Shown here: positions 11,574 to 26,015 of the stretch, piece by piece
Layout of the letters: each line of letters starts with the position of its first letter
How positions within the stretch are numbered: position 1 is the first letter of the stretch
Notes under the pieces: generated by a model
The model's input: only the letters and a program-made list of their open reading frames with translations
The model's database searches: none
What the model was told of the DNA's origin: nothing
Made by a program: the position numbers and the translations under genes
Source: Comamonadaceae bacterium
Lineage (GTDB): Bacteria; Pseudomonadota; Gammaproteobacteria; Burkholderiales; Burkholderiaceae_C
DNA length: 64,000 nt
Reading direction: 5' to 3'
Assembly: GCA_947448735.1 (NCBI GenBank)
Contig: CANFOS010000021.1
Location: 1 to 64,000 of the forward strand

Positions 11574-12353
11574 TCACCAGGCCCCGCTGAATGACCCACC
11601 GTCCATCAGCAAGTTTTGCCCATTGATGTAGCCCGCATGGGCGCTGCATAAAAAGGCACACGCCGCGCCAAATTCTTCGGGTTGACCGAGTCGTTTGGCC
11701 GGGTGTTTGGCAATGCGGTCTGCGCGTACCTGGGCGGCATCGAGTCCGCTGCGCTGGGCGGCCGCGGCAAAATTGCTGGCCAGGCGCGCGGTCTCAAAGG
11801 TGCCGGGCAGGATGTTGTTGATGGTCACGCCTTTGGCCACGGTGCTGCGGGCCAGCCCGGCCACAAAACCGGTCAGCCCGCTGCGTGCGCCGTTGCTCAG
11901 GCCCAGAGCATCGATCGGTGACTTCACCGCACTGGAGGTGATGTTGATGATGCGGCCAAAGCCGCGCTGCATCATGCCGTCGATCACCTGCTGGATGATC
12001 GCAATCGGGCTGAGCATGTTGGCGTCCAGCGCGCGCAACCAGGCGTCGCGATCCCAGTCGCGAAAGTCACCCGGCGGCGGGCCGCCTGCGTTGGTGATGA
12101 CGATGTCAAAGCTCGGGTGCTGGCTGAAAATGCGGTCGCGGCCTTCCGGCGTTGTGACATCTGCTGCCACATAAGCCACGCTTGCAGTGCCAAGCGCTTC
12201 TAATTGAGTAGCAGCCTGCACAAGTTTTTCGAGGGTTCTGGCCGCAATGACGACATCAACGCCTTCACGCACCAGCGCTTCGGCGCAGGCCAGACCCAGG
12301 CCTGCACTGGCGCCGCAGATCAGGGCTTTTTTACCTGCAATTTTCAAGTCCAT
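11574..12353 (-). CDS. Divergent short-chain dehydrogenase-like protein, last gene of the catabolic operon
   Basis: A 259-residue SDR-fold protein with a good nucleotide loop (GASAGLGLA, 14-22), a NAG motif (88-90) and the serine position intact (ITSSAVKS, Ser140/141). The catalytic Tyr-x3-Lys pair is missing: the aligned segment reads SNGAR (153-157), so Ser and Arg stand in for Tyr and Lys. A known SDR subgroup resembling ketoacyl reductases also lacks the tetrad. It may bind NAD(P) and a substrate without ordinary ketone reduction, or use a different mechanism. It follows the Rieske oxygenase by three bases; a diol-dehydrogenase role would be the obvious guess but the active site argues against it. 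Confidence 0.8.
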   Translation of the reverse strand: MDLKIAGKKALICGASAGLGLACAEALVREGVDVVIAARTLEKLVQAATQLEALGTASVAYVAADVTTPEGRDRIFSQHPSFDIVITNAGGPPPGDFRDWDRDAWLRALDANMLSPIAIIQQVIDGMMQRGFGRIINITSSAVKSPIDALGLSNGARSGLTGFVAGLARSTVAKGVTINNILPGTFETARLASNFAAAAQRSGLDAAQVRADRIAKHPAKRLGQPEEFGAACAFLCSAHAGYINGQNLLMDGGSFSGAW

Positions 12354-12356
12354 GGC

Positions 12357-13394
12357 TCAGCTCGCAGACAACTGTTTTTGGGCCAGGTTCTGCATCACCT
12401 TGCGCAAGCGCGACAGGCCAATGTCGTGCTCGTACAAATGCTCGCGGGCATTCGCATCAGGCTCCATGGTTTCCAGCATCACGCGGTCTTGCTCCAGCAC
12501 CACCCAGTGGCGCGCCTCCAGCCGGTTGCGGTACAAAAAGCGCCACACATCGCGCTGCCAGCCTTGCACCTTGCGGCAACGCCAGAAAAAGACGATGGAC
12601 AGTTGCGGGCTGACCGGTGTGTAGCTGCCGATGATGGTGAAGCTGCCGCCAGGACCGCCCGTTTTGGGGTAGGGGATGGCCAAGCGCATCCAGTGGGTGC
12701 CGGTGTCACCCCACTCGGTCCAGTCAAAGTTCACATCGCGCTGGCCGTCTTTTTCAAACATGAAGCCGTGCTCGGTTTTGCGCAGTTTGAACTTGGCACT
12801 GATGTCGCCCTCGCTCATCGAATGCGACTGCTTGTGCACAAAGCTGCCGTGCATCGGGTCCATCACGTTGTCGGCCACGTAGCGGTAGTCGCCGCGCCAT
12901 TCCACGTAGCACAAAAAGCTGCTCCACTCGGGGTCGCTCATCTGTTCTGGCAAGTCCAGCTGGGGCGGCGTGTCGACATGGTGGCGGCTGTTGTACAGCC
13001 AGATCGCGCCGTTGGCGTCCTGCACATGAAACGACCGCGCCGCGCGTGAGCCTTCCAGCGTGCAGCCGGGGCTGGCTGGCACCTTGGTCACCATGCCGTC
13101 GCAGCGCACCTCAATGCCGTGGTACGGGCAGGCCAGGCGGTCGCCCAAATTGACGCCCATCGACAGTGGTGCGCCCCGGTGCGGGCAGTGGTCTTCCAGC
13201 GCGTGAATCAGCCCGGCGCCGTCGCGCCACAGCGCGATTTTGTAGCCCAGGCGGCGCATCGATACCGGCCGCTCCTTGACAAAATCAGACGGACAAATCG
13301 GATACCACAGGTCGTACAGGCCGCGCTCGAGCAGCTTGTCGACGTCTTGCGGCGTGATGGTTTTGGTTTCTTGGGTGTCTGTGGCGGCAGTCAT
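12357..13394 (-). CDS. Rieske non-haem iron oxygenase, alpha-type subunit
   Basis: A 345-residue ring-hydroxylating or demethylating oxygenase of the phthalate/vanillate type. The Rieske cluster ligands are Cys70, His72, Cys89 and His92 (CPHRGA...CPYHG), and the mononuclear iron site is N176xxD179xxH182x4H187, the full canonical motif. No beta subunit gene follows, as in homotrimeric phthalate-type enzymes. No reductase is encoded nearby, but a Rieske ferredoxin is the first gene of the same operon (25385-25747) and could deliver electrons. The substrate is unknown; hydroxylation, dihydroxylation or O/N-demethylation are all possible for the family. Confidence 0.92.
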   Translation of the reverse strand: MTAATDTQETKTITPQDVDKLLERGLYDLWYPICPSDFVKERPVSMRRLGYKIALWRDGAGLIHALEDHCPHRGAPLSMGVNLGDRLACPYHGIEVRCDGMVTKVPASPGCTLEGSRAARSFHVQDANGAIWLYNSRHHVDTPPQLDLPEQMSDPEWSSFLCYVEWRGDYRYVADNVMDPMHGSFVHKQSHSMSEGDISAKFKLRKTEHGFMFEKDGQRDVNFDWTEWGDTGTHWMRLAIPYPKTGGPGGSFTIIGSYTPVSPQLSIVFFWRCRKVQGWQRDVWRFLYRNRLEARHWVVLEQDRVMLETMEPDANAREHLYEHDIGLSRLRKVMQNLAQKQLSAS

Positions 13395-13395
13395 C

Positions 13396-13656
13396 TCACG
13401 CTCCTAGAGTTTTCATCACGGCCTGAAAAGACTCAGGCGTCCAGGGCTGGCTGTTAGGCGCCAGCGGCCCGCTTTTGTTCAGGTGCGCGACCAGCGCGTC
13501 CAGCTCCCAGTGGCCGGCGCCAAAGCCGCGCTCAATGGCGTCGCCCAGCAAGTCTTCGAACGTGGTCGGCGGGCGTGTGCGCGCCTGATGCGGGTTCAGG
13601 TGGCGCTCTTGCAGCGCGTGCATGGGAATGCCGTTCATGGTGTTCAGTGTGCTCAT
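13396..13656 (-). CDS. Small recombinase-like helix-turn-helix protein
   Basis: An 86-residue protein with a short N-terminal segment and a helical C-terminal half (EDLLGDAIERGFGAGHWEL, then LNKSGPLAPNSQPWT). It resembles small proteins described as recombinase-like HTH-domain proteins that sit next to Rieske oxygenases in Burkholderiales. It ends one base before the oxygenase start, so translation is coupled. Despite the name there is no recombinase active site; a small regulator or an accessory protein of the oxygenase are both possible. Confidence 0.7.
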   Translation of the reverse strand: MSTLNTMNGIPMHALQERHLNPHQARTRPPTTFEDLLGDAIERGFGAGHWELDALVAHLNKSGPLAPNSQPWTPESFQAVMKTLGA

Positions 13657-13671
13657 GCTTGCTCCAGAAAA

Positions 13672-14631
13672 TCAGCGTTTTTCAGTCAGGAATGCACCGG
13701 ACGCAGCCACCTTGGGCTGCCTGCGGGTAAAGCCGTCAATGCCGCCGTCAATCGCCCATTCGGCAAAGGCGGTGGGGCTGGGTGCAAAGTCGCGCGCGAC
13801 CCAGTTGTGGGTGAGGTGGTCTTCGTCGGCGTTGTACTCGATCAGCCCGCCGCAGGGGTTTTCAAAGTACCAGAAAAAGGCTGATGAAATCGGGTGCTTG
13901 CCAGGGCCAAGCTGGGTTTTCCAGCCCTTGCGGCTCATGTTCAGCCCGCCGCCAAACACCTCGTGAATGTCTCGTACGGTGAAGGCGACATGGTTCAGGC
14001 CACTGGCTTTGCCCGGCAACTGAAGCAAGAAAATATCGTGGTGCCCACCCTCGAGCGAGCAACGCATGAAAATACCGCGCCCCGGATAGCGGTCTGAGGT
14101 GGTGAAACCCAGGCCGGCATAAAACGCTTCGGCCGCATCCAGCTTGTCGGTGAACAGCACCACATGGCCAATCTCAATCGGCTGGGCGCTGTCGTAGATC
14201 GGTGACGGCTTGTCAATGCGGCGAGCCTCGTCCCAGGTGTTGGTGGCCACGCCTTGGATGTCAATGCTGCGCTTGGCGCTTTTTTGAAACACGATTTGCA
14301 GGCCGTGCGGGTCCAGCGCCTGCACGGTGCCGAGGGTCGAGCGCTGGTCTTTGAAACCCGGCGCGCCTGCCAACGCGGTGGCCAGCGCATCGAGCTGCGC
14401 ATCGCTGCGCACACCCCACACCACCTCACGCAAGGTGGGGCCCGCTTCTATCGGCGGCGCCAGCGTGGCGTCAGCTGTGCGCCGAACATTCACGCGGGCA
14501 CCGTTGAGCGTTTCCCACTCTTGCAGCGCCGTGCTGTGGCTGATGTTTTTCAGCCCCCAGTCGGCAAAAAATTTGGCCGAGTCGTCCCACGCTTCGGTGG
14601 AATAGGTGATGGCGTCGATACCTTCAATCAT
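13672..14631 (-). CDS. VOC-superfamily extradiol dioxygenase-like protein
   Basis: A 319-residue two-domain vicinal-oxygen-chelate protein. The C-terminal domain has the three metal ligands of type I extradiol dioxygenases: His156 (IGHVVLF), His214 (GLNHVAF) and Glu265 (GLIEYNAD). The N-terminal domain (1-130) is the non-catalytic half. Family members cleave catechol-type rings next to the hydroxyls using Fe(II). In this operon it would act after the Rieske oxygenase, and the alpha/beta hydrolase at 20.4 kb would act on the cleavage product. Glyoxalase or dehydrochlorinase activity is less likely because of the two-domain layout. Confidence 0.85.
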   Translation of the reverse strand: MIEGIDAITYSTEAWDDSAKFFADWGLKNISHSTALQEWETLNGARVNVRRTADATLAPPIEAGPTLREVVWGVRSDAQLDALATALAGAPGFKDQRSTLGTVQALDPHGLQIVFQKSAKRSIDIQGVATNTWDEARRIDKPSPIYDSAQPIEIGHVVLFTDKLDAAEAFYAGLGFTTSDRYPGRGIFMRCSLEGGHHDIFLLQLPGKASGLNHVAFTVRDIHEVFGGGLNMSRKGWKTQLGPGKHPISSAFFWYFENPCGGLIEYNADEDHLTHNWVARDFAPSPTAFAEWAIDGGIDGFTRRQPKVAASGAFLTEKR

Positions 14632-14639
14632 GTGTCACC

Positions 14640-15587
14640 TCATAAAACCAGTTTGTCTTTGCCCACCACGATCTCGCCTTTGAAATGACGAGCCGCGTGT
14701 TCGCGCCAGACCTCATCTGCAATGGGCTCGTCACCGGGCAACAAATGCGTCAGTACCAGTCGGCGTACACCGGCTTGTGCAGCAATGCGTCCGGCATCTT
14801 CAGCGGTCGTGTGGCCGGCCAGTAAAAACTTTTTTAAATTGGGCGGCACATAAGGACGCTTGGCCAGCATGGCGTCTATACCGGAAACCAGCATGGCCTC
14901 ATGCACCAGCGTGTCGGCACCCCGCGCCAGCGCCACGGTGGCCTGCACGGGAGAGGTATCGCCAGAAAACACCACGCTGGTGTCGGCCGTGTCAAAGCGG
15001 TAAGCGAGTGCCACCTCAAAAGGCTCATGGTCTACACGGGCTACCGTCACTTTGACGCGGTCGTCGCTGAACACCACACCAGGCGTGCTGATTTCGCTGA
15101 CCGCAAAACTCTTTTCAATCGGCTGGCGTCCTGTGGCCTTGATGCGAATGTCTATGTCTTCACGCTGCAAGGCGATCGCTGCATCGTGAATACGCAGCAT
15201 GGGCGGTGGGCCCATCACCTTCATCTGCCCTTGAATGCCCAGAATCCAGGACAGGTTGACCAGGCTCGGATAGTCGGCGTTGTGGTCTGAATGGTGGTGC
15301 GTGATGAAGACGTTGGCTATCTCGGGCAAACGCATACCCATCTCTGTCATTCGGGCAATTGCCCCGTAGCCGCAGTCAATCAGGTAGCCGCGCCCGTTCA
15401 CGAACAGCGCCTGGCTCGCCATCATGCGCGATGGATGCAACACCGGCCCGGCCATGGTGCCCAGCAGCACGATGCGCGTGCCGCTGCGCCAGGTTGCAGC
15501 GCCCGCCAAGGGTTGCGCCCAAGCCGCAGCAGCACCAACGGCAGCCGCAGCACCAGCCAGCAGGCAGGCTCTACGGTTGAGGTTCAT
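14640..15587 (-). CDS. Exported metallo-beta-lactamase-fold hydrolase
   Basis: A 315-residue MBL-fold protein with an N-terminal signal of Tat type (NRRACLLAG then an Ala-rich stretch to about residue 27). The zinc motif is HHHSDHNAD near residue 100, followed by further His/Asp ligands (SGDTSP; AGHTTAEDAG). It resembles the arylsulfatase/RNase Z-like branch, so a phosphodiester, sulfate ester or lactone substrate is possible. I chose the ATG at 15587, which overlaps the upstream aldehyde dehydrogenase stop (ATGA) and has GTGGAG six bases upstream. A periplasmic step in an otherwise cytoplasmic pathway suggests pre-processing of the growth substrate. Confidence 0.85.
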   Translation of the reverse strand: MNLNRRACLLAGAAAAVGAAAAWAQPLAGAATWRSGTRIVLLGTMAGPVLHPSRMMASQALFVNGRGYLIDCGYGAIARMTEMGMRLPEIANVFITHHHSDHNADYPSLVNLSWILGIQGQMKVMGPPPMLRIHDAAIALQREDIDIRIKATGRQPIEKSFAVSEISTPGVVFSDDRVKVTVARVDHEPFEVALAYRFDTADTSVVFSGDTSPVQATVALARGADTLVHEAMLVSGIDAMLAKRPYVPPNLKKFLLAGHTTAEDAGRIAAQAGVRRLVLTHLLPGDEPIADEVWREHAARHFKGEIVVGKDKLVL

Positions 15588-17059
15588 GCCGCACTCCACG
15601 GATTAGGCTGCTCATTCATGCCCCAGTAATAGCTTTTCTGGCTGGTGTATTCCAAAATGCCGAGCCGACCTTTTTCGCGGCCTGTGCCGCTCATCTTCAC
15701 GCCGCCAAACGGTGTGCTGACCGAAAACACCTTGTAGGTGTTGACCCAGACGGTGCCGGTTTGCAGCGCGCGGCCCAGTCGCCAGACGGTTTTGTAATCT
15801 TGGCTCCAGATGCCTGCGGCCAGACCGTAGACGTTGTCGTTGCACTGGGCGATCAGGTCAGCCTCGTCATGCCATGGCAACAGCGCCAGTACCGGGCCAA
15901 AAATTTCTTCCTGGCACATGCGGGCGCTGTTCGGCAGGCCTTCCATGATGGTGGGTTGGTAGTAGCTGCCTTTGTCATAGACGGAGCCGTGTGGACGTGC
16001 GCCGCCGAACAACACTTTGGCACCTTCGTCAATGCCAAGTTGCACATATTCTTCCACCGAGGCGCGGTGGCTTTGGCTGACCAGCGGGCCCATGTGGGTG
16101 GCCTCGCTGGCTGGATCACCCACGCGCAAGCTTTTAACGCCGGCCAGCAAGCGCGACTTGAACTCGTCATACACACGGGCATGCACAAACGCGCGTGAAC
16201 CCGCAATGCACGACTCGCCTGAGGAGCTGAAAATACCGTACAACACGCCTGCGACGGCGTGGTCCAGGTCAGCGTCTTGGCAAACAATGGTCGGCGACTT
16301 GCCACCCAGCTCCAGCGATGTAGGCATGAGTTTGTCTGCTGCGATGCGCGCAATGCCCATGCCAACACTCGTGCCGCCGGTAAACGCGATGCGCTTGATG
16401 AGCGGATGCCGCACAAGTGCTTCTCCGACGATGGAGCCCTTGCCGGGCAGCACGCTGATGATGCCGTCGGGCACACCAGCGGCTTGCGCGATGCGGGCCA
16501 ATTCAATGGCCATGCGCGGCGTGATTTCAGCCGGTTTGAAGACCACTGCGCAACCCGCCGCCAGGGCCGGGGCCAGCTTTTGCGCCTCGCTGGCAATCGG
16601 TGAGTTCCATGGCGTGATGGCGCCCACCACGCCGAGCGGCTCGTGCACGCTCAGGGTGATGCTGTCGCCGCGCTGAGGGGTGATGGCATCTTCATGGGTT
16701 TCGCAGGCGGCTGCAAAAAACTGAAAGGTGCCTGCTGCGCTGGCGACCAAGGCGCGGGTTTCTTTGATCGGTTTGCCGTTGTCCAGCCGCTGCAACTGGG
16801 CCAGCTCTTCAGCGCGCGCACGTATCCCAGCGGCGATGTTGTGCAGCAGCCCGGCGCGTTCGTGCGGCTTGAGCTGGGCCCACGCGGGCTGCTGGCGCGC
16901 ACGCTCGGCGGCTTGCACGGCATCGTCGACATCCTGCGCTGTGGCGGCGTTCAATGTGGCGACCTGGCTGCCGTCGTGCGGGTAGTCGGTGGCGTACGCC
17001 GGGCCTGAGGCGTCGCGCCACTGGCCTGTGATGAAGGTTTGCAGATGAGGCGTCGTCAT
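15584..17059 (-). CDS. NAD(P)-dependent aldehyde dehydrogenase
   Basis: A 491-residue enzyme of the ALDH superfamily that oxidises an aldehyde to the acid. Catalytic residues are visible: Asn152 (ITPWNSP), Glu250 (LELGGKSP) and Cys284 (GESCIAGS). Length and motifs fit the betaine-aldehyde/semialdehyde dehydrogenase branch. It overlaps the aspartate-dehydrogenase-like gene before it and the MBL hydrolase after it by four bases each, so all three are translationally coupled. The likely substrate is the aldehyde formed by the ThDP decarboxylase or by ring cleavage in this operon. Confidence 0.93.
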   Translation of the reverse strand: MTTPHLQTFITGQWRDASGPAYATDYPHDGSQVATLNAATAQDVDDAVQAAERARQQPAWAQLKPHERAGLLHNIAAGIRARAEELAQLQRLDNGKPIKETRALVASAAGTFQFFAAACETHEDAITPQRGDSITLSVHEPLGVVGAITPWNSPIASEAQKLAPALAAGCAVVFKPAEITPRMAIELARIAQAAGVPDGIISVLPGKGSIVGEALVRHPLIKRIAFTGGTSVGMGIARIAADKLMPTSLELGGKSPTIVCQDADLDHAVAGVLYGIFSSSGESCIAGSRAFVHARVYDEFKSRLLAGVKSLRVGDPASEATHMGPLVSQSHRASVEEYVQLGIDEGAKVLFGGARPHGSVYDKGSYYQPTIMEGLPNSARMCQEEIFGPVLALLPWHDEADLIAQCNDNVYGLAAGIWSQDYKTVWRLGRALQTGTVWVNTYKVFSVSTPFGGVKMSGTGREKGRLGILEYTSQKSYYWGMNEQPNPWSAA

Positions 17060-17853
17060 AGGGTTAGTCCGCTGGCCCGGTTGTGCAGAAATCGCAGTCC
17101 TGACAGCACGGTAAGTGCCGAGGTTTTGGGGTTCTCGGCCAGAGGCTTGCCGCGCATCGTCACCTGCATCTCGCCAAACTCGCCGCGTGCGTGGATCTCA
17201 TGGATGTTGTCCGTCACAGCCGGGTCAGCCATGAGGCGCACGCGGGTTGCGTCCAGCCCCAGCCCGGCCAGTGACACCGTGGCGGCCACGTTGGCATTTT
17301 TGGGGTAAGTCTGCGCTGCTTCGCGTGCGGTCCCCTCAAAAATAACCGTGGCCTGGGTGAGGGTTGCGAGGTTGACCAGACTTTCAGCGGCGGAGCCCTT
17401 CCAGCCTTGCGGTGGTTTGCGCCCGGTGTAGGTCACCTCCACCAAACCGGCTTGCCGGGCCGCGGCCAGTGCGTCAATGCCGCCAATCGCACCGGCCAGC
17501 AAATGCACCTGCGTGTTGCCAACTTGCGCCGCTTCGGCCAGGCGCTCGGGCAAGCCGCGCTCAGACAACGCACCGACCGACATCACGGCGCATTCGCAAC
17601 CTGCTTGGAGTGCGTCCAAGACATGTGTGGTCAGCGCCTGGTGGCCTGCACATTCGAGCACCAGCCTGGCGCTGGGGGGCACAGCGGCGACCGCCTGCGC
17701 ATTGCTGCCTGCTGCTTTGAGCGCTGCCTGCACGTCGGCCACGCGCGGCTCACGCACCACCACATGGGTCACGGTGACCAAAGGGCTGCCGTTGAGTCTG
17801 CGGCAAAGCGCTTGGCCAATCGCGCCGTAACCGATGAGGGTGACGTCCAGCAT
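17056..17853 (-). CDS. L-aspartate dehydrogenase-like protein
   Basis: A 265-residue protein of the NadX/aspartate dehydrogenase family: a Rossmann domain with GYGAIGQ (8-14) and a C-terminal catalytic domain with NIHEIHARGEFGE, where His218 or His221 is the expected catalytic base. Family enzymes reversibly deaminate L-aspartate through iminoaspartate. In NAD synthesis NadX sits with nadA and nadC; here it lies inside a catabolic operon between a ThDP enzyme and an aldehyde dehydrogenase. A pathway role on an amino or imino intermediate is therefore more likely than NAD synthesis. Confidence 0.85.
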   Translation of the reverse strand: MLDVTLIGYGAIGQALCRRLNGSPLVTVTHVVVREPRVADVQAALKAAGSNAQAVAAVPPSARLVLECAGHQALTTHVLDALQAGCECAVMSVGALSERGLPERLAEAAQVGNTQVHLLAGAIGGIDALAAARQAGLVEVTYTGRKPPQGWKGSAAESLVNLATLTQATVIFEGTAREAAQTYPKNANVAATVSLAGLGLDATRVRLMADPAVTDNIHEIHARGEFGEMQVTMRGKPLAENPKTSALTVLSGLRFLHNRASGLTL

Positions 17854-17854
17854 G

Positions 17855-19519
17855 TCAGTCTTTCTTCAAAATGGGTCCGGCAAACTTGACGGCAAACGGG
17901 CCCCAGCTTTGCATGTCAACCTCCACCACCACCGGGCCGCCGGCCGCAAAGGCTTGGGTCAGCACGTCAGCCGTTTGATCGGGTTCTTGCAGCTTGAAAT
18001 ACGCGACCTGCAGGCTGGCACAAAACGCGGCAAAGTCGGGGGTGTGCAGGTCGACATAGCAGTGACGGCCGCCGTAAATATCGTCCTGGATGTTTTTGAT
18101 CACACCATACCTGGCGTCGTTCATCAAGATCACGACCAGCTGGGCGCGCTCCTGCACGGCGCAGGCCAGTTCGCCCACATTCAGCATGAAGCCGCCGTCG
18201 CCGACCAACGCCACCGTCTTGCGCTTCAGGCCGTGTTCAGCATCGGCAATCGACGTGCCAATCGCCATGGCCAAGCCCTGACCAATGCCGCCGCCCAGCG
18301 CGTGAACGCCCGCAAGCGGGTGGTTCAGCCGCGGTGCGCGGTTGCCCCACATGGTGTTGGACAGCGTGATGTCGCGCACCCACCAGATGTCTGGCCCCGC
18401 TTGTTTTTCAAGTGCATTTTTGAGCGTCAGGTAGGCACCCAAAGTAGCATCGACCGCCTTTGCGGCTTGAGCCCGCGCAGCTTGCACATCAGCATGCAAA
18501 GCCTGGTCGATCTGCATCTGGCCTTCCAGAATGTCGGCCAGTGCGTTCAGCGTGGCGGCCGCATCGCCCTGCACAAAATAGTCGCTGCGGTAACCCCGGT
18601 TATGCGCCATGGCGTTGGCATCAATGCGGTACAGCGCCTTGGGCAGTTTGAGCTTGTAACGCAGCGTCTCGTTGCTGCGCAGGCGCGTGCCCACGGCCAG
18701 CATGGCGTCGCAGCTTTGGTACAGGTCTTCGGCTGGTTTTTGCAGGTTGTACGAACCCAGGCTGGCCGGGTTGTCTTCAGAAATAATGCCGCGCCCCTGC
18801 ACCGACGAGACCACACCCCAGCCCATGTTGACGAAACGCTGGGCGGCAGTCCGCGCGCCCCGTGCACCGCCGCCCAGCCACAGCAAGGGGCGTTTGGCGG
18901 CTTTCAAATAGCCAGCCAGTGCGGCCACCTGCGCGGCATCAGGCTGCACGGGCTGCAGTGCCAGCGGGGCCAAATCGGCAGGCAAGTCCATCAGTCTGGC
19001 TTGGATGTCAATCGGAATCTCAATGCTGACCGGCCCGCAAGGCGCGGCAAATGCCAGGCGGTGCGCTTCACGCAGCGTGGCCAGTGCGGTCTCGGCATTG
19101 CGGATGCGAAACGCGGCTTTGCCCACCGCTTGCAGCATGGCCAACTGCTGGGGTGCTTCGTGGATAAACCCCAAGTCGCGATCCAGATAATCAGACTCGA
19201 TTTGGCCAGTCAGGTGCAGCATGGGCGTGCCGGCGGTCAATGCTTCAATCAGCGCGCCGGCGGCATTGCCTGCGCCCGTGCCAGTGCTGGTCACGCACAC
19301 GCCCAGGCGGCCCGTGACGCGGGCATAGGCGTCGGCCATGTTGCAGGCACCGGCCTCACCCCTGCTAGAGACAAAGCGGATTTTTTGCCTGGTGTTGAAG
19401 GCGTCCAGGATCGGCATGTTGTGAATCGAGATCACGCCGAACGCCGCCTTCACGCCGCAAAGCTCCAGGAAGCGGGCGGCGAGTTCACCGACCGTGATGT
19501 GTGCTGGTTGGTTTGTCAT
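17855..19519 (-). CDS. Thiamine diphosphate-dependent enzyme (acetolactate synthase/benzoylformate decarboxylase-like)
   Basis: A 554-residue three-domain ThDP enzyme. The activating Glu is Glu55 in SSRGEAGACNMADAYAR, and the Mg/ThDP motif GDGGFMLNVGEL...MNDARYG is in the C-terminal domain. The FAD-binding features of acetolactate synthase are not obvious, and the context argues for a 2-oxo-acid decarboxylase or a C-C lyase. I used the ATG at 19519, two bases after the IclR stop; a TTG at 19525 is in frame. It is followed with a one-base gap by the aspartate-dehydrogenase-like gene. A decarboxylase making an aldehyde for the ALDH in the same operon is a coherent model. Confidence 0.87.
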   Translation of the reverse strand: MTNQPAHITVGELAARFLELCGVKAAFGVISIHNMPILDAFNTRQKIRFVSSRGEAGACNMADAYARVTGRLGVCVTSTGTGAGNAAGALIEALTAGTPMLHLTGQIESDYLDRDLGFIHEAPQQLAMLQAVGKAAFRIRNAETALATLREAHRLAFAAPCGPVSIEIPIDIQARLMDLPADLAPLALQPVQPDAAQVAALAGYLKAAKRPLLWLGGGARGARTAAQRFVNMGWGVVSSVQGRGIISEDNPASLGSYNLQKPAEDLYQSCDAMLAVGTRLRSNETLRYKLKLPKALYRIDANAMAHNRGYRSDYFVQGDAAATLNALADILEGQMQIDQALHADVQAARAQAAKAVDATLGAYLTLKNALEKQAGPDIWWVRDITLSNTMWGNRAPRLNHPLAGVHALGGGIGQGLAMAIGTSIADAEHGLKRKTVALVGDGGFMLNVGELACAVQERAQLVVILMNDARYGVIKNIQDDIYGGRHCYVDLHTPDFAAFCASLQVAYFKLQEPDQTADVLTQAFAAGGPVVVEVDMQSWGPFAVKFAGPILKKD

Positions 19520-19521
19520 GC

Positions 19522-20358
19522 TCAAGCGGCGATCTTGTGTTGAAGGGTAGGCAAGCTGCGCAACGCGTTGCGCGGTGGGGGTAAGTGGCTCAGGCGCTCG
19601 GTCAAGGCTTGAGCGGCCTGCTGCACTTGGGGCACCAGCGTGTCGGTCATCTGTTTGTCCAGGTGCTGTGCCGGCACAGCAATGCTGACGGCAGCGATCA
19701 CTTCGAGTCGGTCATTCAGCACGGGGGACGCAATGGTGGAAATTCCGGTTTCAAACCCGCCCTGGCTGATGCCGTAGCCATTGTGTCTATCGGTGTCCAG
19801 CTGGGCTTTGAGCTCAGCGACGGTCTTGGGCGTTTTAGGGGTGTAACTTTGCAAGGTCGCTTCGGGGTAAAGCGCGCTCAGCTCGGCCAGCGTCATGCAG
19901 CACAGCAACTGGCGGCCCAGCACGGTGGCATGAGCCGGCAAGCGTGCGCCCACCTGTATGGCATGAAAGGGCGTGCTCTTGCCGGTGGCTTTGGCCACAA
20001 ACACCACCTCGCGCTGGTCACGCACCACGATGTGGGCCGAGTAGCCTGAGGTGTCGCGCAGCGCCTCAATGATGGGGCGGCCATGCTCGGTCAGCTCCAT
20101 GGAGGCGAGGTATTCAAAGCCCAGCCGCAGCACGCCCAGGCTGAGCTTGTATTGGGCGCCGTCGCCAACGCGCTCGACAAAACCCGATTTTTCAAGCGTG
20201 TGCAACATGCGAAACACCGACGCACGCGGCAGCCCCAGCTGGCGCGACAAATCTGCGCCGCTGAGCTGGGGCGTCTGGCGGCTGAATTTACCCAGCAACT
20301 CCAGCCCACGTTGAAGCGCTGGGACGATGTAACGGTCGTCTGGCGGGGCGTCGTTCAT
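19522..20358 (-). CDS. IclR-family transcriptional regulator
   Basis: A 278-residue regulator with an N-terminal winged helix (about 10-75: ADLSRQLGLPRASVFRMLHT) and a C-terminal GAF-like effector-binding domain (about 90-260: AHATVLGRQLLCCM and GGFETGISTIASPVL). IclR proteins often control aromatic degradation genes. It lies inside the operon rather than at its edge, between the hydrolase and the ThDP enzyme, so it would be co-transcribed and could set up feedback. Its site may be the repeated TGATTC region upstream of 25747. Confidence 0.9.
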   Translation of the reverse strand: MNDAPPDDRYIVPALQRGLELLGKFSRQTPQLSGADLSRQLGLPRASVFRMLHTLEKSGFVERVGDGAQYKLSLGVLRLGFEYLASMELTEHGRPIIEALRDTSGYSAHIVVRDQREVVFVAKATGKSTPFHAIQVGARLPAHATVLGRQLLCCMTLAELSALYPEATLQSYTPKTPKTVAELKAQLDTDRHNGYGISQGGFETGISTIASPVLNDRLEVIAAVSIAVPAQHLDKQMTDTLVPQVQQAAQALTERLSHLPPPRNALRSLPTLQHKIAA

Positions 20359-20371
20359 GGTGTCGAATGTT

Positions 20372-21244
20372 TCAGTGGGTGAATTGCAAAAGTGCGTTGA
20401 CCTGGTCTGACGCCTCCAGCGCGCAAGCGTGGCCGACCGGACCTAAGTCAAGCCAGTCGGTGTTGGCAGCCAGCGCCACCGCCTGGCAGGCGGCGGGCGG
20501 GGTGGCGTTGTCCAGCTGACCACTGGCGACGCTGATCGGGCACTGCACTTTGGCAACGTCAGTGATCAAGTCACCGCCAGCGAGCAAGTGCGCCGCCTGT
20601 GTGTAACCACTGACATGGATTTGAGACATCATGCGTTGCGCGTAGGCCTTCATGTCAGGCGGCGCGTTAGGCGACACCATGCCTGCGCCGCGCTGCTGGC
20701 CCCAGCCCTCAGGGCCAAGCGCGGCCAGCTGGTTCAGCCGGTCATCGCGTTTTTTGTCCCGGTCTTCGGCCGTGGCCCGCGCGTAGCCCTGGGCTGGGGC
20801 GAGCAGCACCAGTCTGGCCACTTGGGCCGGGCGCTGCACGGCTGCACGGGCGGCCATCAAGGCGCCCAGAGAATGCCCGACCAGCGTGACCGGGTGGGTG
20901 ATGCACAGCGCGTCCAGCCAGGCCCACAGCTGGCGGGCGTAGTCGCCCGCATCGGGTCGGCCAGGGGCCACCGGACTGCTGGCGGCGTAGCCTGGCGCGT
21001 CCCAGGCAAGCAAGCCGCGGCCACCACCTTGGGCGGCTTCAAGCTGCATCAGCCAGCTGCCCGAGGCCGAACCAATGCCATGCAGCAACACATGGCTGAC
21101 ACGCTGTGCGCCAGCCTGCCGATACGTGACCTGCCCGCCGGGCACCGCCATCACTTGCGGCGTGAAGCGCTGCAAGCGTTCAGCCAACGGGCCGGGTTGG
21201 GTGCTCATGGAGGGGGTGGCGTGAAGGTCGGCATTTGAGGGCAT
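20372..21244 (-). CDS. Alpha/beta hydrolase, meta-cleavage-product hydrolase-like
   Basis: A 290-residue alpha/beta-fold hydrolase. The oxyanion loop is HGIGSASGSW (55-64), the nucleophile is Ser125 in GHSLGA, and Asp245 and His272 (VGHAC) complete the triad. Length and the HGxGxxxxSW loop resemble BphD/MhpC-type C-C hydrolases that act after extradiol cleavage; esterase or lactonase activity is also possible. The start is not certain (ATG 21244 or 21208) because neither has a clear ribosome-binding site. Confidence 0.85.
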   Translation of the reverse strand: MPSNADLHATPSMSTQPGPLAERLQRFTPQVMAVPGGQVTYRQAGAQRVSHVLLHGIGSASGSWLMQLEAAQGGGRGLLAWDAPGYAASSPVAPGRPDAGDYARQLWAWLDALCITHPVTLVGHSLGALMAARAAVQRPAQVARLVLLAPAQGYARATAEDRDKKRDDRLNQLAALGPEGWGQQRGAGMVSPNAPPDMKAYAQRMMSQIHVSGYTQAAHLLAGGDLITDVAKVQCPISVASGQLDNATPPAACQAVALAANTDWLDLGPVGHACALEASDQVNALLQFTH

Positions 21245-21268
21245 TTTGGATATAAAAACAGGGTTTTA

Positions 21269-21309
21269 CCCAATAAAAATCAGGGCCAATAGCTCTTAAT
21301 TTAATAGCG
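21269..21309 (-). repeat. Dispersed intergenic repeat, copy c
   Basis: Minus-orientation copy (CCAATAAAAAT ... CAATAGCTCTTAATTTAATAGC) lying between two genes of the catabolic operon, ending just at the cupin stop codon. Confidence 0.65.
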
Positions 21310-21310
21310 G

Positions 21311-21916
21311 TTATTTTGCCGCGGCCGCCAGCATGTCGCGCTTGATTTTGGCCAGCGGGCTGTCGGGCGGGTAGGTCGGTGTGATCGGCTTGGGTGTGCC
21401 CAGCATCACGCACATCAGGGCGTCTTCGTCGCCGATGTTGGTTTCTTCGCGGTACACGCCGGGTGGCACCGAGATCAAGTCGCGCTCGTTGAGCACAGCC
21501 TCCCAGCGCTCGCCGTCTTTTTCGCAGACGATTTTCATCTTGCCGCGCATCACAAAAAACACCTCTTCCACGTCATAGTGGATATGCGATGGGCCGACAT
21601 TACCGGCGGGTATCACCATGGTGGAGAAGGTGAAGTGCGCCGACGGCACGGTGTTCATGTCGGTGGCCACGCCAGTGCCGCCGGTGCCCACGTAGCGCAT
21701 TTGGGCGCGGCGGTAGGTCGGGTCGTAATCAGCCTGAAACTTCAAGGCGTCCCAGTCGTATTTGCGGGTAGAAAAGCGGGCCACGCGGCTTTCCATCCAG
21801 GCCGCCATGCTTTGGCCAGGCGCGGCCATCATGCCGCGCTGAATCTCGGCTTCAGCAGGAATCGCCGCGTCCATCAGGCCGCGTTCATTGAAGAGGGGTT
21901 GATTGGCTGCGTTCAT
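21311..21916 (-). CDS. Cupin-domain protein, possible dioxygenase
   Basis: A 201-residue protein with a single cupin barrel at about residues 90-180. Metal ligands His111, His113 and Glu117/118 are in HIHYDVEEVFFVMRG, and PPGVYREE marks the second cupin motif, although the usual final histidine is not obvious there. Single-cupin enzymes in aromatic pathways include ring-cleaving dioxygenases and isomerases. A second possible ring-cleavage enzyme beside the VOC protein makes the pathway unusual. The function is not assignable from sequence alone. Confidence 0.8.
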   Translation of the reverse strand: MNAANQPLFNERGLMDAAIPAEAEIQRGMMAAPGQSMAAWMESRVARFSTRKYDWDALKFQADYDPTYRRAQMRYVGTGGTGVATDMNTVPSAHFTFSTMVIPAGNVGPSHIHYDVEEVFFVMRGKMKIVCEKDGERWEAVLNERDLISVPPGVYREETNIGDEDALMCVMLGTPKPITPTYPPDSPLAKIKRDMLAAAAK

Positions 21917-21941
21917 GGGGTTTCCTTGTTTTGGTGATGTC

Positions 21942-22721
21942 TCAATTCATGACAAAGCCACCGTTGACGGGCAGCACTTGTCCGGTAATAAAACCGCTGC
22001 CGCGCGACAGCAAAAACAGCACGGCATCGGTCACGTCTTCGGGCGTTTGGGCACGTTCGACGGCGCGGCCATTGCGGTAGTGGTCGTGGCGGGCCTGGGG
22101 CACGTATTCAGTGGCCTCGACCAAGGTCAAGCCGGGTGCGATGGCATTGACAGTGATGCCCTGCGGCCCCAACTCGCGCGCCATCGAGCGGGTCATGGCC
22201 ATCACGGCGCCCTTGCTGGCCACATAGGCCATCAGGTTGGGCGCGCCCCACAACGCGGTGTCAGAGGCCAGATTGACCACGCGCCCGCTGCCGCCAGCGG
22301 CCAGGTGCGGCTGTGCAGCCACGGTGGCCAGCCAGGTGCCGCGCACGTTGACGCTCATCACGCGGTCCCACATGTCCGTGGCAATGTCACCCATGACTTT
22401 GCCACCTGAATTGGTAATCGCACCGTTGTTGACAAGACCGTCTAGCCCACCCATGTGTGCAGCGGCGGCGTTGACCCCGGCCTGGATGGCGGCCGGGTCG
22501 CTCAAGTCCATCGGCAGGTAATGCGCCTCTGGCCCAAGCGCTTTGGCCAGCGCCTGGCCGCGCTCATGCAGCACGTCGCTGATCACCACTTGCGCGCCCG
22601 CAGCCCGCAGCGCACGTGCAAACGCCTCGCCCAGCCCCCGCGCACCGCCGGTGACCAGTACCTTGCGGCCTGTGAGCGAGATTTCTGAGGGTTTGGATGT
22701 GGTCATGCGTGTTAAGTCCAT
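21942..22721 (-). CDS. Short-chain dehydrogenase/reductase
   Basis: A 259-residue classical SDR with TGGARGLGEA for the cofactor, NNGA in place of NNAG, a catalytic Ser in NLASDTALWG and an intact YVASK dyad. The C-terminus (GFITGQVLPVNGGFVMN) is typical of 3-oxoacyl-reductase-like or diol dehydrogenases. It starts four bases after the ABC permease stop. In the operon it is the natural candidate for a cis-diol or alcohol dehydrogenase, since the other SDR lacks its Tyr-Lys pair. Confidence 0.9.
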   Translation of the reverse strand: MDLTRMTTSKPSEISLTGRKVLVTGGARGLGEAFARALRAAGAQVVISDVLHERGQALAKALGPEAHYLPMDLSDPAAIQAGVNAAAAHMGGLDGLVNNGAITNSGGKVMGDIATDMWDRVMSVNVRGTWLATVAAQPHLAAGGSGRVVNLASDTALWGAPNLMAYVASKGAVMAMTRSMARELGPQGITVNAIAPGLTLVEATEYVPQARHDHYRNGRAVERAQTPEDVTDAVLFLLSRGSGFITGQVLPVNGGFVMN

Positions 22722-22725
22722 TTGG

Positions 22726-23511
22726 TCAGGCAGAGCGTCGCTCGGAAGAAGGCAGGTAATGCAGCACGCGCCGCTCGACCATCACCACCGCGTAGTAAGC
22801 CGCGATGCCAATCACCGTCAACGCGGCGATGACGACAAACACCGCAGCGGTATTGCCCTGGCCTTCAAAAAACACCAGCAAATAGCCCAGGCCCATGTTG
22901 CCGCCGACCAGCTCGCCCACCACCACCCCAATCACCGCCAGTGTGCTGGCGATGCGCAGGCCAGAGAACAGGGCAGGCATGGTGGTCGGGTATTCCACAT
23001 TCCTGAAGACTTGAAAGCGGGTTGCTGAAAAAGAGCGCGCCAGATTGATCATGTCAACGTCCATGGTGCGCATGGCCGACAGCACATTGATGAGTACCGG
23101 AAAGAAAACAATCAGCACCGCCACCAAAATTTTGGGATACATGGTGTAACCCATCCACATCACAAACAGGGGCGCAAAAGCCACTTTGGGTGCGATTTGC
23201 AGGGCCAGCAGATACGGGGACAGTACCGCCTCCACACGCGGCGACAGGCCCAAGGCGTAACCCATCAAGGCGCCCAGTACAGAACCCAAAATAAAACCAA
23301 TCAGGACCTCGGCCGCGGTGATGCCCGCATGCCACAACAGGCGCTCGCTGCCCCAGATGCGGACGGCCTCAAGACACACTTTGCTGAGGTTGGGCAGCAC
23401 ATAGTCGGGCGCGCCAACCAGCGCAGGGCCCCACTGCCAGACCGCCAAAAAAAGCACCAGCACCGCCAGGCTCCATAGCAGGGTGCTGAGGCGGTCATGG
23501 TTGGCGTTCAT
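22726..23511 (-). CDS. ABC transporter permease, NitT/TauT type
   Basis: A 261-residue inner-membrane permease of the BPD_transp_1 family with about six helices. The EAA-like coupling loop lies in the segment RSFSATRFQVFRNVEYPTTM. It follows the substrate-binding protein and precedes the SDR by four bases. Family members import nitrate, taurine, sulfonates, thiamine precursors or aromatic acids such as phthalate. ATG 23511 is used; a GTG at 23520 is in frame. Confidence 0.9.
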   Translation of the reverse strand: MNANHDRLSTLLWSLAVLVLFLAVWQWGPALVGAPDYVLPNLSKVCLEAVRIWGSERLLWHAGITAAEVLIGFILGSVLGALMGYALGLSPRVEAVLSPYLLALQIAPKVAFAPLFVMWMGYTMYPKILVAVLIVFFPVLINVLSAMRTMDVDMINLARSFSATRFQVFRNVEYPTTMPALFSGLRIASTLAVIGVVVGELVGGNMGLGYLLVFFEGQGNTAAVFVVIAALTVIGIAAYYAVVMVERRVLHYLPSSERRSA

Positions 23512-23538
23512 GGACGTCACTTGTGTGCTGGTAAGCTT

Positions 23539-24546
23539 TTATTTGCCCAACACGAACTGGTTCGTGTACAGGTCTTTGAGCGGCGCTTCTTTGGCCACCA
23601 CACCATTGCCAACATAAAATTTTTGCAGCTCACCCAAGCGGGCTTCGTCCATCTGGCCGGGTACTTTCTGGCCTGCGTAAACATATTTGTTGTACATCTC
23701 GAAGGCTTTCAGAATGGAGGCTTCTTTGCCGGTGTGAACTGGCACATGCTTGACGTACGCCGCTGTGGCGGCCTTGGGGTCGGCCATGATGTCCTTCATG
23801 CCCTTGAGGGTAGCGCGCACCAGCTTTTGCACCAGTTGCGGGTTCTTTTGAATCGTCTCGTCGGAGGCGAGGATAGACTGCGCCATGCTCTTGAAGTAAA
23901 TGTCGGCCGGCAAGATGTCGACCTGCGCGCCCGCGTCCAGGGCGCTGACCGTCCAGTCGGGAACAGCGGCCATGGCGGTGGCTTTTTTGCCTGCAAATTG
24001 TTGCCACACACCAGCCGGGCCAGCGGCCTGAATGTTGACATCGTTTTTGGTCAGCCCGACTTTGCTGAGCATGCCCAGCAGCGCGTAGTAGGTGGTGTCG
24101 GTGTAGGAAATGACCGTGACGGTCTTGCCTCTGAGCTCACGCGGGCTTTCAATCCTCTCGTCTTTGTGGCTGACCAGTTGCATCAGGGAGCCGCTGCCCA
24201 GCACGGCCACCGCCTTGACCGGAATGCCCTGCGCCCGCGCGATGATGGGGGTGTCGCCGATCGCGCCGCCAATGACGGCATTGCCTGCGCCAACCTGCTT
24301 GGCCACATCAACGCCGCCGCGCCCGGCGACAAACTCAACCTCCAGGCCTTCAGCCGCGTAATAGCCTTTGGCTTGGGCCAGCATCCACGGTCCAAAAGCT
24401 GGCAGCGTCCCCGGCGCGGGCAGCAAATAGGTTATTTTTTGCAGTTGCGCCTGGGCCGCCAGGGGCAGCATGAATGCGCTGGTGGCCAACAGGGCCAGGG
24501 CAGTGCGGCGCAATGTGCCGGTGTGGATGAGGGCTTTGACAGTCAT
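23539..24546 (-). CDS. ABC transporter substrate-binding protein (NMT1/THI5-like)
   Basis: A 335-residue periplasmic binding protein with a Sec signal peptide ending near AAQA-QL (residue 34). The mature part has the NMT1/SsuA fold, with typical LRGKTVTVISYTDTTYYALL in domain 1. GGAG lies a short distance before the ATG. It is the specificity determinant of the importer encoded here. The ligand is probably the growth substrate of the operon and cannot be told from sequence. Confidence 0.92.
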   Translation of the reverse strand: MTVKALIHTGTLRRTALALLATSAFMLPLAAQAQLQKITYLLPAPGTLPAFGPWMLAQAKGYYAAEGLEVEFVAGRGGVDVAKQVGAGNAVIGGAIGDTPIIARAQGIPVKAVAVLGSGSLMQLVSHKDERIESPRELRGKTVTVISYTDTTYYALLGMLSKVGLTKNDVNIQAAGPAGVWQQFAGKKATAMAAVPDWTVSALDAGAQVDILPADIYFKSMAQSILASDETIQKNPQLVQKLVRATLKGMKDIMADPKAATAAYVKHVPVHTGKEASILKAFEMYNKYVYAGQKVPGQMDEARLGELQKFYVGNGVVAKEAPLKDLYTNQFVLGK

Positions 24547-24593
24547 GATGTTTCTCCGGTGGGGTGTTGAAAGGGCAGCGCTGGTTGAAGGGG

Positions 24594-25388
24594 TCAGTGC
24601 ACGTCAGTGTGCGCATCAAGCTTGAGCAGATCCATCAGGCGCGCCACGTAGGGGCCAACCTCGGGGCGTTTGCGTCTGGCCATGGGGTTGTCGCGGTCGG
24701 GTAGGTCAACCTTGATTTGCTCAACGATGGTGCCGGGGCGTTCGCTCATGACCAGGATACGGTCTGACAGCGCCACGGCTTCAAACAAGTCATGCGTGAT
24801 GAAGAGCACCGTCTTTTGATGCTGCGCCACGGTTTGCGCCAGGTCCTGCTGCAGGATCATTTTGGTTTGCGCATCAAGGGCCGAGAACGGCTCGTCCATC
24901 AGCAGTACGAGCGGGTCAACCGCCAGCGTTCTGGCCAGTGCCGCACGCTGGCGCATACCGCCCGACAGCTGGTGCGGGTAATTGGCACCAAAGCCAGTCA
25001 GGTGGCACTGCTTGAGCAGCCGCTGCGACACGTCGGCGCGCCCGGCGGCGGGCACACCCCGCAGCTCCAGCCCAAATTCGATGTTTTGGGCAATCGTGCG
25101 CCACGGCATCAACAGGTCTTTTTGCAGCATGAAGGACACGTGTTTGTTGGGTCCCTCAACGACTTGCCCCGCCACCTTGACCACGCCTGCGCTTGGCTTG
25201 GCCAGGCCCGAACCCATGTTCAGCAAGGTGCTTTTGCCGCAGCCTGATGGCCCAATGATGGACACGACTTCACCCGGCGCAATCGCAAAGTTCACGTCTG
25301 TGGCGGCCAGCACTTCTTTGGACTGCCCACGCGCGGGGAAACGCTTTTGCACGCCAATGAATTCGATCGCAGGCGCGGCGCTTGTCAC
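24594..25388 (-). CDS. ABC transporter ATP-binding protein, NitT/TauT type
   Basis: A 264-residue ATPase subunit with Walker A GPSGCGKSTLL, signature LSGGMRQR and Walker B VLLMDEPFSALD. It starts with a GTG that overlaps the stop of the ferredoxin gene (GTGA), which shows tight translational coupling. It energises the importer made with the next two genes. Confidence 0.94.
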   Translation of the reverse strand: MTSAAPAIEFIGVQKRFPARGQSKEVLAATDVNFAIAPGEVVSIIGPSGCGKSTLLNMGSGLAKPSAGVVKVAGQVVEGPNKHVSFMLQKDLLMPWRTIAQNIEFGLELRGVPAAGRADVSQRLLKQCHLTGFGANYPHQLSGGMRQRAALARTLAVDPLVLLMDEPFSALDAQTKMILQQDLAQTVAQHQKTVLFITHDLFEAVALSDRILVMSERPGTIVEQIKVDLPDRDNPMARRKRPEVGPYVARLMDLLKLDAHTDVH

Positions 25389-25747
25389 ACAGCGGCTTTC
25401 ACGATGGGGATTTGCACCTGCACCCTGCCATCGGAGATGCGTACCGGGAAGCGCTGTAAATCACGCTGACCGACTTCCACCAGGCATTTGCCAGTGGCAA
25501 TGTCAAACCGTGCTGCGTGCAAGGGACATTCGATCACGCCGCCTTCCTGAAAGCCTTGCGACAGCAGCGCGTAGGCATGCGGGCAAATATCTTCAAGCGC
25601 GTGCACCTCGCCGTCGAGCAAGAACAGCCCGAGCTTGTGCCCATGGATGTCGACACCGACCGGAAAGTCAGGGTCGAGCTGGCCTTGCGCAGCGGCGTCA
25701 TGCCAAGTCAGGTCTTGGGTGGGAGTTGCGGGGCTGGAATCGCTCAT
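25385..25747 (-). CDS. Rieske [2Fe-2S] ferredoxin, first gene of the catabolic operon
   Basis: A 120-residue soluble Rieske protein with cluster ligands Cys55, His57, Cys74 and His77 (CPHAYALL...CPLHAARF). It resembles the ferredoxin components of three-component dioxygenases. I chose the ATG at 25747 (MSDSSPAT); the frame runs on upstream through what looks like promoter DNA. It would pass electrons to the Rieske oxygenase at the far end of the operon. No ferredoxin reductase gene is present in the window, so one must be supplied from elsewhere. Confidence 0.9.
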   Translation of the reverse strand: MSDSSPATPTQDLTWHDAAAQGQLDPDFPVGVDIHGHKLGLFLLDGEVHALEDICPHAYALLSQGFQEGGVIECPLHAARFDIATGKCLVEVGQRDLQRFPVRISDGRVQVQIPIVKAAV

Positions 25748-25770
25748 AACTACGCCTTGGCATCCGATTA

Positions 25771-25824
25771 TTGATTCATCAATAAAACATTGATTCTCTA
25801 ATGATTCATTATTGGGCTGATGAA
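25771..25824 (-). promoter_or_regulatory. Candidate operator/promoter region of the catabolic operon
   Basis: An AT-rich stretch just upstream of the first gene with three TGATTC half-sites (25772, 25791, 25803), a near-perfect inverted repeat TTGATTCATCAA (25771-25782), and an inverted GATGAA at 25819. Such spaced half-sites are what a dimeric regulator binds. The IclR protein of the operon is the natural candidate, but this is inference. Confidence 0.45.
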
Positions 25825-26015
25825 TGCCGCCGTCAATCAATAGTTGAGCGATTTCATGGGGATTGGGCCGCTTCGCAGGATGATGCGGTGTCGCACAGAG
25901 CTAGAGGCAACGTTCAGCGCTCTCGTTTGACGTATGTGGCGCAAGCCATGGATGTGCGCGATAGAAGCTGATCGTGATCGCGCGGGAGCGCATTCATTTC
26001 AGACAGAAATACCCA

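Follow-up and report, generated by a model that had tools for sequence, protein, structure and literature searches.

A sixteen-gene operon from a Comamonadaceae bacterium that probably serves the uptake and degradation of kynurenate

Introduction

Which compound is broken down by the tightly packed set of sixteen minus-strand genes at 11574-25747 of the DNA analysed here? This DNA, which we call the window, is a stretch of 64,000 nucleotides (positions 1 to 64,000 of contig CANFOS010000021.1, assembly GCA_947448735.1) from a Comamonadaceae bacterium. An initial annotation, made from the sequence alone, had read the genes as a catabolic operon that matches no nameable pathway. That last statement is not supported as it stands: the enzyme logic of the operon fits the kynurenate branch of tryptophan catabolism and genome-wide gene associations agree with it. 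We consider it probable that the operon enables the cell to take up and break down kynurenate (4-hydroxyquinoline-2-carboxylate); this substrate, like each reaction of the route proposed below, is what we infer from the encoded families and their distribution.

Results

The gene set fits the quinoline branch of tryptophan catabolism

The kynurenate (quinoline) branch has been known biochemically since the 1960s, with Delftia acidovorans as its classical organism, and it comprises the Enzyme Commission (EC) activities EC 1.14.99.2, 1.3.1.18 and 1.13.11.10 and later steps (KEGG map00380); we know of no genes for it. In the classical route, extradiol cleavage leaves a pyridine that bears an oxopropenyl side chain; this chain is then reduced, decarboxylated and oxidised, and all intermediates as far as the carboxyethyl compound belong to this pathway. 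The window operon encodes, all together, the families of an oxygenase, a dihydrodiol dehydrogenase, an extradiol dioxygenase, a decarboxylase and an aldehyde dehydrogenase. Profile searches found no hydratase, aldolase, tautomerase or amidohydrolase family among the sixteen genes. After its extradiol dioxygenase, the classical route would need a thiamine diphosphate (ThDP) decarboxylase and an aldehyde dehydrogenase (ALDH) in place of a hydratase and an aldolase, and in this too the enzyme set fits the quinoline branch.

The proposed route runs as follows. Kynurenate would be taken up by an ATP-binding cassette (ABC) importer of the NitT/TauT type, which consists of an ATPase (24594-25388; PF00005, 5e-29), a permease (22726-23520; PF00528, 2.4e-26) and a periplasmic receptor of the NMT1/THI5 family (23539-24546; PF09084, 9.6e-38) whose putative ligand is kynurenate. 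A Rieske ferredoxin, encoded by the first gene of the operon (25385-25747; PF00355, 9.4e-18; CxH-Cx2H), is the proposed electron donor for a Rieske oxygenase of the VanA_C type (RO; 12357-13394; PF00355, 5.2e-20; PF19112, 6.9e-11), a candidate kynurenate 7,8-dioxygenase that would form the 7,8-dihydrodiol. Two short-chain dehydrogenases/reductases (SDRs) are encoded. SDR2 (21942-22721; PF13561, 1.9e-58), the proposed kynurenate-7,8-dihydrodiol dehydrogenase, would rearomatise the dihydrodiol to 7,8-dihydroxykynurenate, which a VOC extradiol dioxygenase (13672-14631; PF00903, 1.7e-11), the putative 7,8-dihydroxykynurenate 8,8a-dioxygenase, would cleave between C8 and C8a to give 5-(3-carboxy-3-oxopropenyl)-4,6-dihydroxypicolinate. 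SDR1 (11574-12353; PF13561, 1.5e-41) may then reduce the double bond of the oxopropenyl side chain. The ThDP enzyme (17855-19525; NF005470, 813.1 bits against a cut-off of 495; GDG...N motif) would decarboxylate the 2-oxo acid, with the 3-carboxy-3-oxopropyl side chain as its proposed substrate, and the ALDH (15584-17059; PF00171, 5.3e-163) would oxidise the resulting aldehyde to 5-(2-carboxyethyl)-4,6-dihydroxypicolinate.

For the last steps, we propose that a cupin (21311-21916; PF07883, 2.9e-9; weak quercetinase matches) and an alpha/beta hydrolase (ABH; 20372-21244; PF12697, 2.1e-16), putatively a lactam or C-C hydrolase, open the dihydroxypicolinate ring and split the chain. By deduction, the opened 4,6-dihydroxypicolinate lactam would be a 2-imino-4-oxo diacid, and if this is cut hydrolytically at C4-C5, the products would be glutarate and iminosuccinate. 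An L-aspartate dehydrogenase (AspDH; 17056-17853; NF009827, 338.7 bits against a cut-off of 226) would then handle the iminosuccinate in an iminosuccinate/aspartate step. The presence of AspDH would be accounted for in this way, since ring opening could yield iminosuccinate, a compound on which AspDH acts.

The oxygenase is associated with genomes in which tryptophan dioxygenase, and no kynureninase, was found

If the cluster degrades kynurenate, genomes with tryptophan dioxygenase (TDO) and without kynureninase (KynU), which make kynurenine and cannot cleave it, should tend to carry it. Among 399 genomes of the family, TDO was found in 260, KynU (sought at E 1e-50 or better; at 0.001 in the window's own genome) in 254, and TDO only in 14. 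RO is present in 9 of these 14 and in 30 of the 385 others (Fisher p 4.6e-7, unfiltered); within TDO-positive genomes, the figures are 9/14 for those lacking KynU and 24/246 for the rest (p 3.8e-6). Permuting RO within five genera, which were chosen for holding TDO-positive, KynU-negative genomes and two of which are uninformative, leaves a p of 0.017, or of 0.025 when a genome with a truncated KynU (G275) is kept as KynU-negative. The Fisher signal is therefore partly, but not wholly, kinship. Among the five of the fourteen that lack RO, in two a fragment of kynureninase lies at a contig end (G275, G343), in one the TDO itself is at a contig end (G334), and in two the TDO match is weak (G101, E 3e-26, 39% identical; G211, E 9e-26). 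Given the KynU cut-off, a divergent kynureninase is possible in G177, G183, G194, G320 and G396.

A supply of kynurenate from TDO would also require that carriers have a kynurenine aminotransferase. We inspected TDO contexts that were hand-picked rather than random (G194 was not among them), and an aromatic aminotransferase lies beside TDO in 7 of 17 RO-positive contexts, drawn from the 33 genomes of the sample with both RO and TDO. Five of these are in G105, G082, G044, G177 and G320; in the other two, G219 and G289, the aminotransferase adjoins a second copy of TDO. No such gene lies beside TDO in the 17 contexts inspected from the 227 genomes with TDO and without RO; four of these (G101, G275, G334, G343) are incomplete or divergent, which leaves 0/13 without them. 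The aminotransferase belongs to NF006719 in the two members scanned (1e-171 and 9e-169), five more were recognised by tblastn at 68-75% identity, and it presumably acts on kynurenine. RidA and KynB genes lie near it in most of the seven contexts, not always on the same strand; in the complete RO-negative controls, the order KynB-KynU-TDO was found in 11 of 13 (exceptions G018 and G314).

A second set consists of 22 named genomes that carry the ThDP block described below. TDO was found in 17 of them, three of which have the aminotransferase beside it (Hydrogenophaga NFH-34, Pigmentiphaga litoralis and Pigmentiphaga NML030171); for two of the 22 (L049, L068), the stretch examined contains no RO. 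When the sets are pooled and the Azohydromonas genome found in both (G405 and G059, the same by TDO position) is counted once, 10 of the 33 distinct cluster-bearing genomes that were examined show the aminotransferase-TDO linkage. The TDO regions at L127:6922-10172, L129:8960-12118, L134:3509-6895, L136:3745-7109 and in L176 have the aminotransferase, with RidA and KynB, at the usual place of kynureninase, and RidA is on the opposite strand in L134 and L136.

A link to TDO is a link to tryptophan, and it could in principle point to another tryptophan product, such as indole-3-acetate or its aspartate conjugate, with AspDH removing the aspartate. The AspDH would suit such a conjugate; however, TDO leads to kynurenine and not to indole-3-acetate, and the amidohydrolase families are missing from the operon, so we hold this explanation to be very improbable. 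The Variovorax auxin locus iad is reportedly MarR-controlled, with a two-subunit Rieske oxygenase and a different gene set. In the window operon, the regulator is of the IclR type and the oxygenase a single VanA_C-type protein, and the iad operon was ruled out as its counterpart.

An ordered block of genes is conserved across proteobacteria

We mapped the operon proteins by tblastn on 80 named loci, the best 80 by ThDP match among the matched stretches listed (one genome per GTDB species); a ThDP relative is encoded in at least 565 of the 595 stretches listed. Considering mapped genes only and ignoring unmapped genes between them, the order SDR2-cupin-ABH-IclR-ThDP-AspDH is kept in 63 of the 80, and many of the remaining 17 end at contig edges. 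ALDH mostly comes after AspDH, and the VOC-HTH_62-RO group (HTH_62 being a small helix-turn-helix protein) either adjoins the block or forms a second, often divergent, unit. Within the 44 named loci of at least 18 kb, the ThDP gene is present in all 44 (by selection), IclR in 43, cupin in 42, SDR2 and ABH in 41 each, AspDH in 40, ALDH in 39, RO in 37, VOC in 34, HTH_62 in 33, each importer gene in 30, SDR1 in 27, the ferredoxin in five and the MBL-fold hydrolase in one; because of this single occurrence, we regard the MBL gene as accessory. RO is present in 15 of 150 genomes of the family and in 39 of the 399 in the larger sample (the window's own genome included in both). With RO in 15/150 genomes and the block order kept in 63/80 loci, the clustering is beyond chance.

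The enzyme core (without the MBL gene, and in some cases without the importer) is found in Comamonadaceae and as far away as Acinetobacter, Klebsiella, Paracoccus and Nitratireductor. Replicons of these four genera and of Pseudosulfitobacter, Novosphingobium, Caballeronia and Vibrio carry the set, in some cases with pieces missing or replaced (for example, MFS transporters for the ABC importer). Ten annotated plasmid loci were fetched, nine of which list an RO. In seven of these nine, an SDR gene comes straight after RO and overlaps it by 1-8 bases, and in all seven this SDR is the best match to SDR2 (56-62%); such a position suits a dihydrodiol dehydrogenase, the role proposed for SDR2. Eight of the ten carry another SDR directly before ThDP or AspDH, whose best match is SDR1 at 26-30% (in L161, SDR2 at 29%), and this alternative SDR presumably does the job of SDR1.

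Several of these clusters have additional neighbours. A sulfatase-family gene (family assigned from one member, L056:19025-20680) and a TctC-like gene adjoin the cluster in L056, L061, L074, L075, L079, L087 and L098, which hints at a sulfated form of the substrate. In the Novosphingobium version (L125:9711-13936), genes for a TonB receptor and a GH3 glycoside hydrolase come before the cluster. Caballeronia plasmid pNK84 (L123:8149-19000) has a compact Fdx-HTH_62-RO-ThDP-VOC arrangement (Fdx, ferredoxin) with a three-gene set for a xanthine-dehydrogenase-type molybdenum hydroxylase.

The Caballeronia arrangement bears on whether the same chemistry could have xanthurenate or quinaldate as its main substrate, kynurenate then being no more than a side substrate or an intermediate. 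A quinaldate 4-oxidoreductase would be a xanthine-dehydrogenase-type molybdenum hydroxylase, and a flavin adenine dinucleotide (FAD) monooxygenase adjoins some clusters. Against this, the molybdenum hydroxylase occurs in one of the ten annotated plasmid loci, and both the association with TDO-positive, KynU-negative genomes and the aminotransferase-TDO linkage indicate kynurenate itself. We also counted in favour of kynurenate that pNK84 combines RO-ThDP-VOC with the molybdenum hydroxylase set and with an aromatic aminotransferase match, which is split over two frames. Xanthurenate or quinaldate as the main substrate is on this evidence unlikely.

Active-site residues are retained

In the VOC protein, H156, H214 and E265, together with H198, H246 and Y255, are invariant in 13 of 13 sequences, and the protein aligns with homoprotocatechuate 2,3-dioxygenase. 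We take the first three to be the iron ligands, as in relatives, and the other three to be second-sphere residues; with these roles, the protein retains a complete type I extradiol active site. RO has the Rieske CxH-Cx2H motif, the VanA_C domain and the iron-binding NxxDxxHxxxxH motif. The residues S125, D245 and H272 of ABH are invariant in 14/14 sequences, and its predicted model (predicted local distance difference test score, pLDDT, 92.6) matches generic alpha/beta hydrolases, both esterases and C-C hydrolases. The metal motif HxH..E of the cupin is likewise invariant in 14/14 sequences; its predicted model is poor (pLDDT 64.9), with fold matches to generic cupins. AspDH, which scores above the curated NadX-type cut-off, shares NIHEI, which covers the active-site N-x-H region, with the solved L-aspartate dehydrogenase 2dc1.

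The nearest solved relatives of RO by sequence, all weak matches, are SxtDIOX, SxtT and the dicamba O-demethylase DdmC. These and the VanA_C domain would suit a monocyclic aromatic with methoxy or other substituents, which RO would O-demethylate or hydroxylate to a catechol; VOC would cleave this, ABH would act as a C-C hydrolase, and ThDP and ALDH would finish the chain. Phenolic conjugates would suit the sulfatase or GH3 genes that adjoin some clusters. However, such a pathway leaves unexplained why AspDH is so widely kept, why SDR2 follows RO as a dihydrodiol dehydrogenase would, and how the TDO, KynU and aminotransferase associations arise, and the operon has none of the tautomerase, hydratase or aldolase families. 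We consider a monocyclic substrate quite unlikely.

A putative ending through iminosuccinate

No AspDH was found in eight of the 80 named loci, two of which end at ThDP (contig end). Three of these eight, from Pigmentiphaga (L105, L110, L117), have a gene of the RidA family of imine hydrolases just after RO, and a RidA-for-AspDH swap is possible there; the RidA proteins of L110 and of the L127 TDO operon share only 37% identity over 78 residues. The idea of such a swap is weak because three AspDH-less loci have no RidA and 14 loci have both.

Combining these elements, a more specific form of the kynurenate assignment can be proposed: a gene set with a non-textbook ending, in which ring opening by the cupin and the hydrolase gives glutarate and iminosuccinate, the latter passing to AspDH or, in Pigmentiphaga, to RidA, and in which strains with the TDO-aminotransferase arrangement and without kynureninase route all of their tryptophan catabolism through it. 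We put this forward tentatively, as a possibility that is less likely than not to be right.

Observations that weigh against the kynurenate assignment

A number of observations weigh against kynurenate as the substrate, or against parts of the route. Most genomes with RO (30 of 39) are not of the TDO-positive, KynU-negative kind; 24 have both genes and six are without TDO, as are 5 of the 22 named ThDP-block carriers. TDO-positive, KynU-negative carriers also exist with no aminotransferase beside TDO (G078, G183, G396 and, in a short stretch, G400). The window's own genome gave no TDO match and has an unlinked kynU (G000:C33:16326-17567; L166:7327-8565). Endogenous kynurenate is therefore not evident there, and the importer must supply it.

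The gene set also varies. RO is present in 47 of the 80 named loci and RO together with VOC in 41, in the stretch examined, and the importer, ALDH or SDR1 is missing elsewhere; the modules are therefore separable. The sulfatase, GH3 and xanthine-dehydrogenase neighbours may indicate differing accessory substrates. As for the ending, L055, L065 and L109 have neither AspDH nor RidA, RidA being present in three of the six AspDH-less loci that are not cut, and 14 further named loci carry a RidA-family match along with AspDH. The familiar oxygenases of the VanA_C type are demethylases or monooxygenases rather than enzymes that carry out cis-dihydroxylation. Lastly, the products given by the tracer work of Horibata in 1961, as cited in PMC11354673, are glutamate, alanine and organic acids, not glutarate and aspartate.

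Layout and setting of the operon

The sixteen genes are spaced by -16 to 66 bases; from the ferredoxin in the order of transcription, the spacings are -4, 47, 18, 4, 25, 66, 13, -4, 1, -4, -16, 8, 15, 1 and 3. The count of minus-strand genes, the gaps of up to 66 bases and the four-base overlaps agree with the initial annotation, and its family calls are borne out by Pfam and NCBIfam profile matches; in addition to three overlaps of four bases, there is one of 16 that it did not mention. On the basis of this spacing and of synteny, the sixteen genes probably form a single transcript.

The sixteenth gene (13396-13656; PF20552, 9.6e-29), which fell below the 90-residue minimum of the first listing of open reading frames, matches the Pfam family HTH_62 ('recombinase-like helix-turn-helix') and is the partner gene of the oxygenase. 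It is tied to RO in alpha-, beta- and gammaproteobacterial loci, and its product, instead of being a regulator, may assist the oxygenase as an accessory protein. The regulator of the operon is of the IclR family (19522-20358; PF01614, 6.4e-36), with the PcaR/PcaU subfamily as its best NCBIfam match (2e-54, under the cut-off of that model). The accessory MBL-fold hydrolase (14640-15599; PF12706, 1.8e-18) has, by eye, a twin-arginine-like N-terminus.

Upstream of the operon, the minus-strand region 25748-26015 has a sigma-70-like promoter site (25836-25808; 10 of 12 consensus positions, with 0.3 sites expected from shuffles), a match that is not functional evidence. AT-rich imperfect palindromes (ATCAAT..ATTGAT) at 25748-25840, read by eye, adjoin this site and are a possible IclR operator. 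At the 3' end, two terminator-like sites (0.5 expected) lie inside coding sequence or at its edge. The flanks look unrelated: past the 3' end lies a plus-strand gene for a ChaN-family protein, and on the upstream side a gene for a TANGO2-family protein. Elsewhere in the window, a stretch at 56719-57522 is 36% identical to an alpha/beta hydrolase that adjoins TDO in another genome.

Discussion

The operon had been described as a self-sufficient catabolic set. This is accurate insofar as the genes make up an almost complete (hetero)aromatic set that brings its own importer, a ferredoxin and a regulator, but it needs qualifying, as no ferredoxin reductase is encoded among the sixteen genes; the rest of the window's genome was not searched for one. 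The Acinetobacter version of the cluster includes an HcaD-like ferredoxin reductase (under the cut-off of that model). Synteny with other clusters, which the initial annotation had named as a check, is wide, and we found no paper that assigns the cluster to a described pathway. Among the best matches listed from the open-licence literature, we found no gene-level description of kynurenate breakdown or of this cluster, an absence that is not proof; PMC9162365 treats the kynureninase cluster of Acinetobacter and not the present one. The possibly similar Pseudomonas aeruginosa locus PA3504-PA3510 was set aside, as no paper naming two of its genes was found.

If the assignment is correct, genes would be assigned to enzyme activities that, to our knowledge, have none, and a widespread cluster for an 'unknown aromatic' would become a testable pathway. 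Aspartate dehydrogenase would gain a role in N-heterocycle breakdown. Kynurenic acid is neuroactive and occurs in the gut and in food, according to PMC11354734; knowledge of the bacteria that may destroy it, including Klebsiella and Acinetobacter, would bear on host-microbe tryptophan metabolism.

Comparison with known systems places the operon beside several pathways with which it shares parts. Like oxygenases of the VanA/DdmC type, RO combines a Rieske and a VanA_C domain in one chain of about 345 residues; it differs in that its match to VanA_C is 43 bits, its matches to SxtDIOX, SxtT and DdmC are weak, and its neighbours imply dihydroxylation of a bicyclic N-heterocycle. The lumichrome lum cluster of Nocardioides simplex (PMC12746152) likewise has an RO, an extradiol dioxygenase and a ThDP decarboxylase in one N-heteroaromatic operon. 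Unlike the window operon, it also encodes a P450, amidases and a xanthine oxidase; its ThDP enzyme is made of two proteins and its Rieske oxygenase of alpha and beta subunits. The term 'aspartate dehydrogenase' is absent from that paper, whereas our operon encodes AspDH. As no P450, amidases, xanthine oxidase or alpha/beta Rieske oxygenase are among the sixteen genes, the lum cluster was ruled out as the same system. With the kynB-kynU-TDO operon of the anthranilate branch, the proposed pathway has a shared start, through tryptophan dioxygenase and formamidase; however, some cluster-bearing genomes have the aromatic aminotransferase, often with RidA, at the usual place of kynureninase. The quinoline branch itself has the same sequence of reaction types, from dioxygenation through aldehyde oxidation. 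Its end products of 1961, again as cited in PMC11354673, are glutamate, alanine and organic acids, whereas the AspDH of the operon suggests an exit through iminosuccinate and aspartate.

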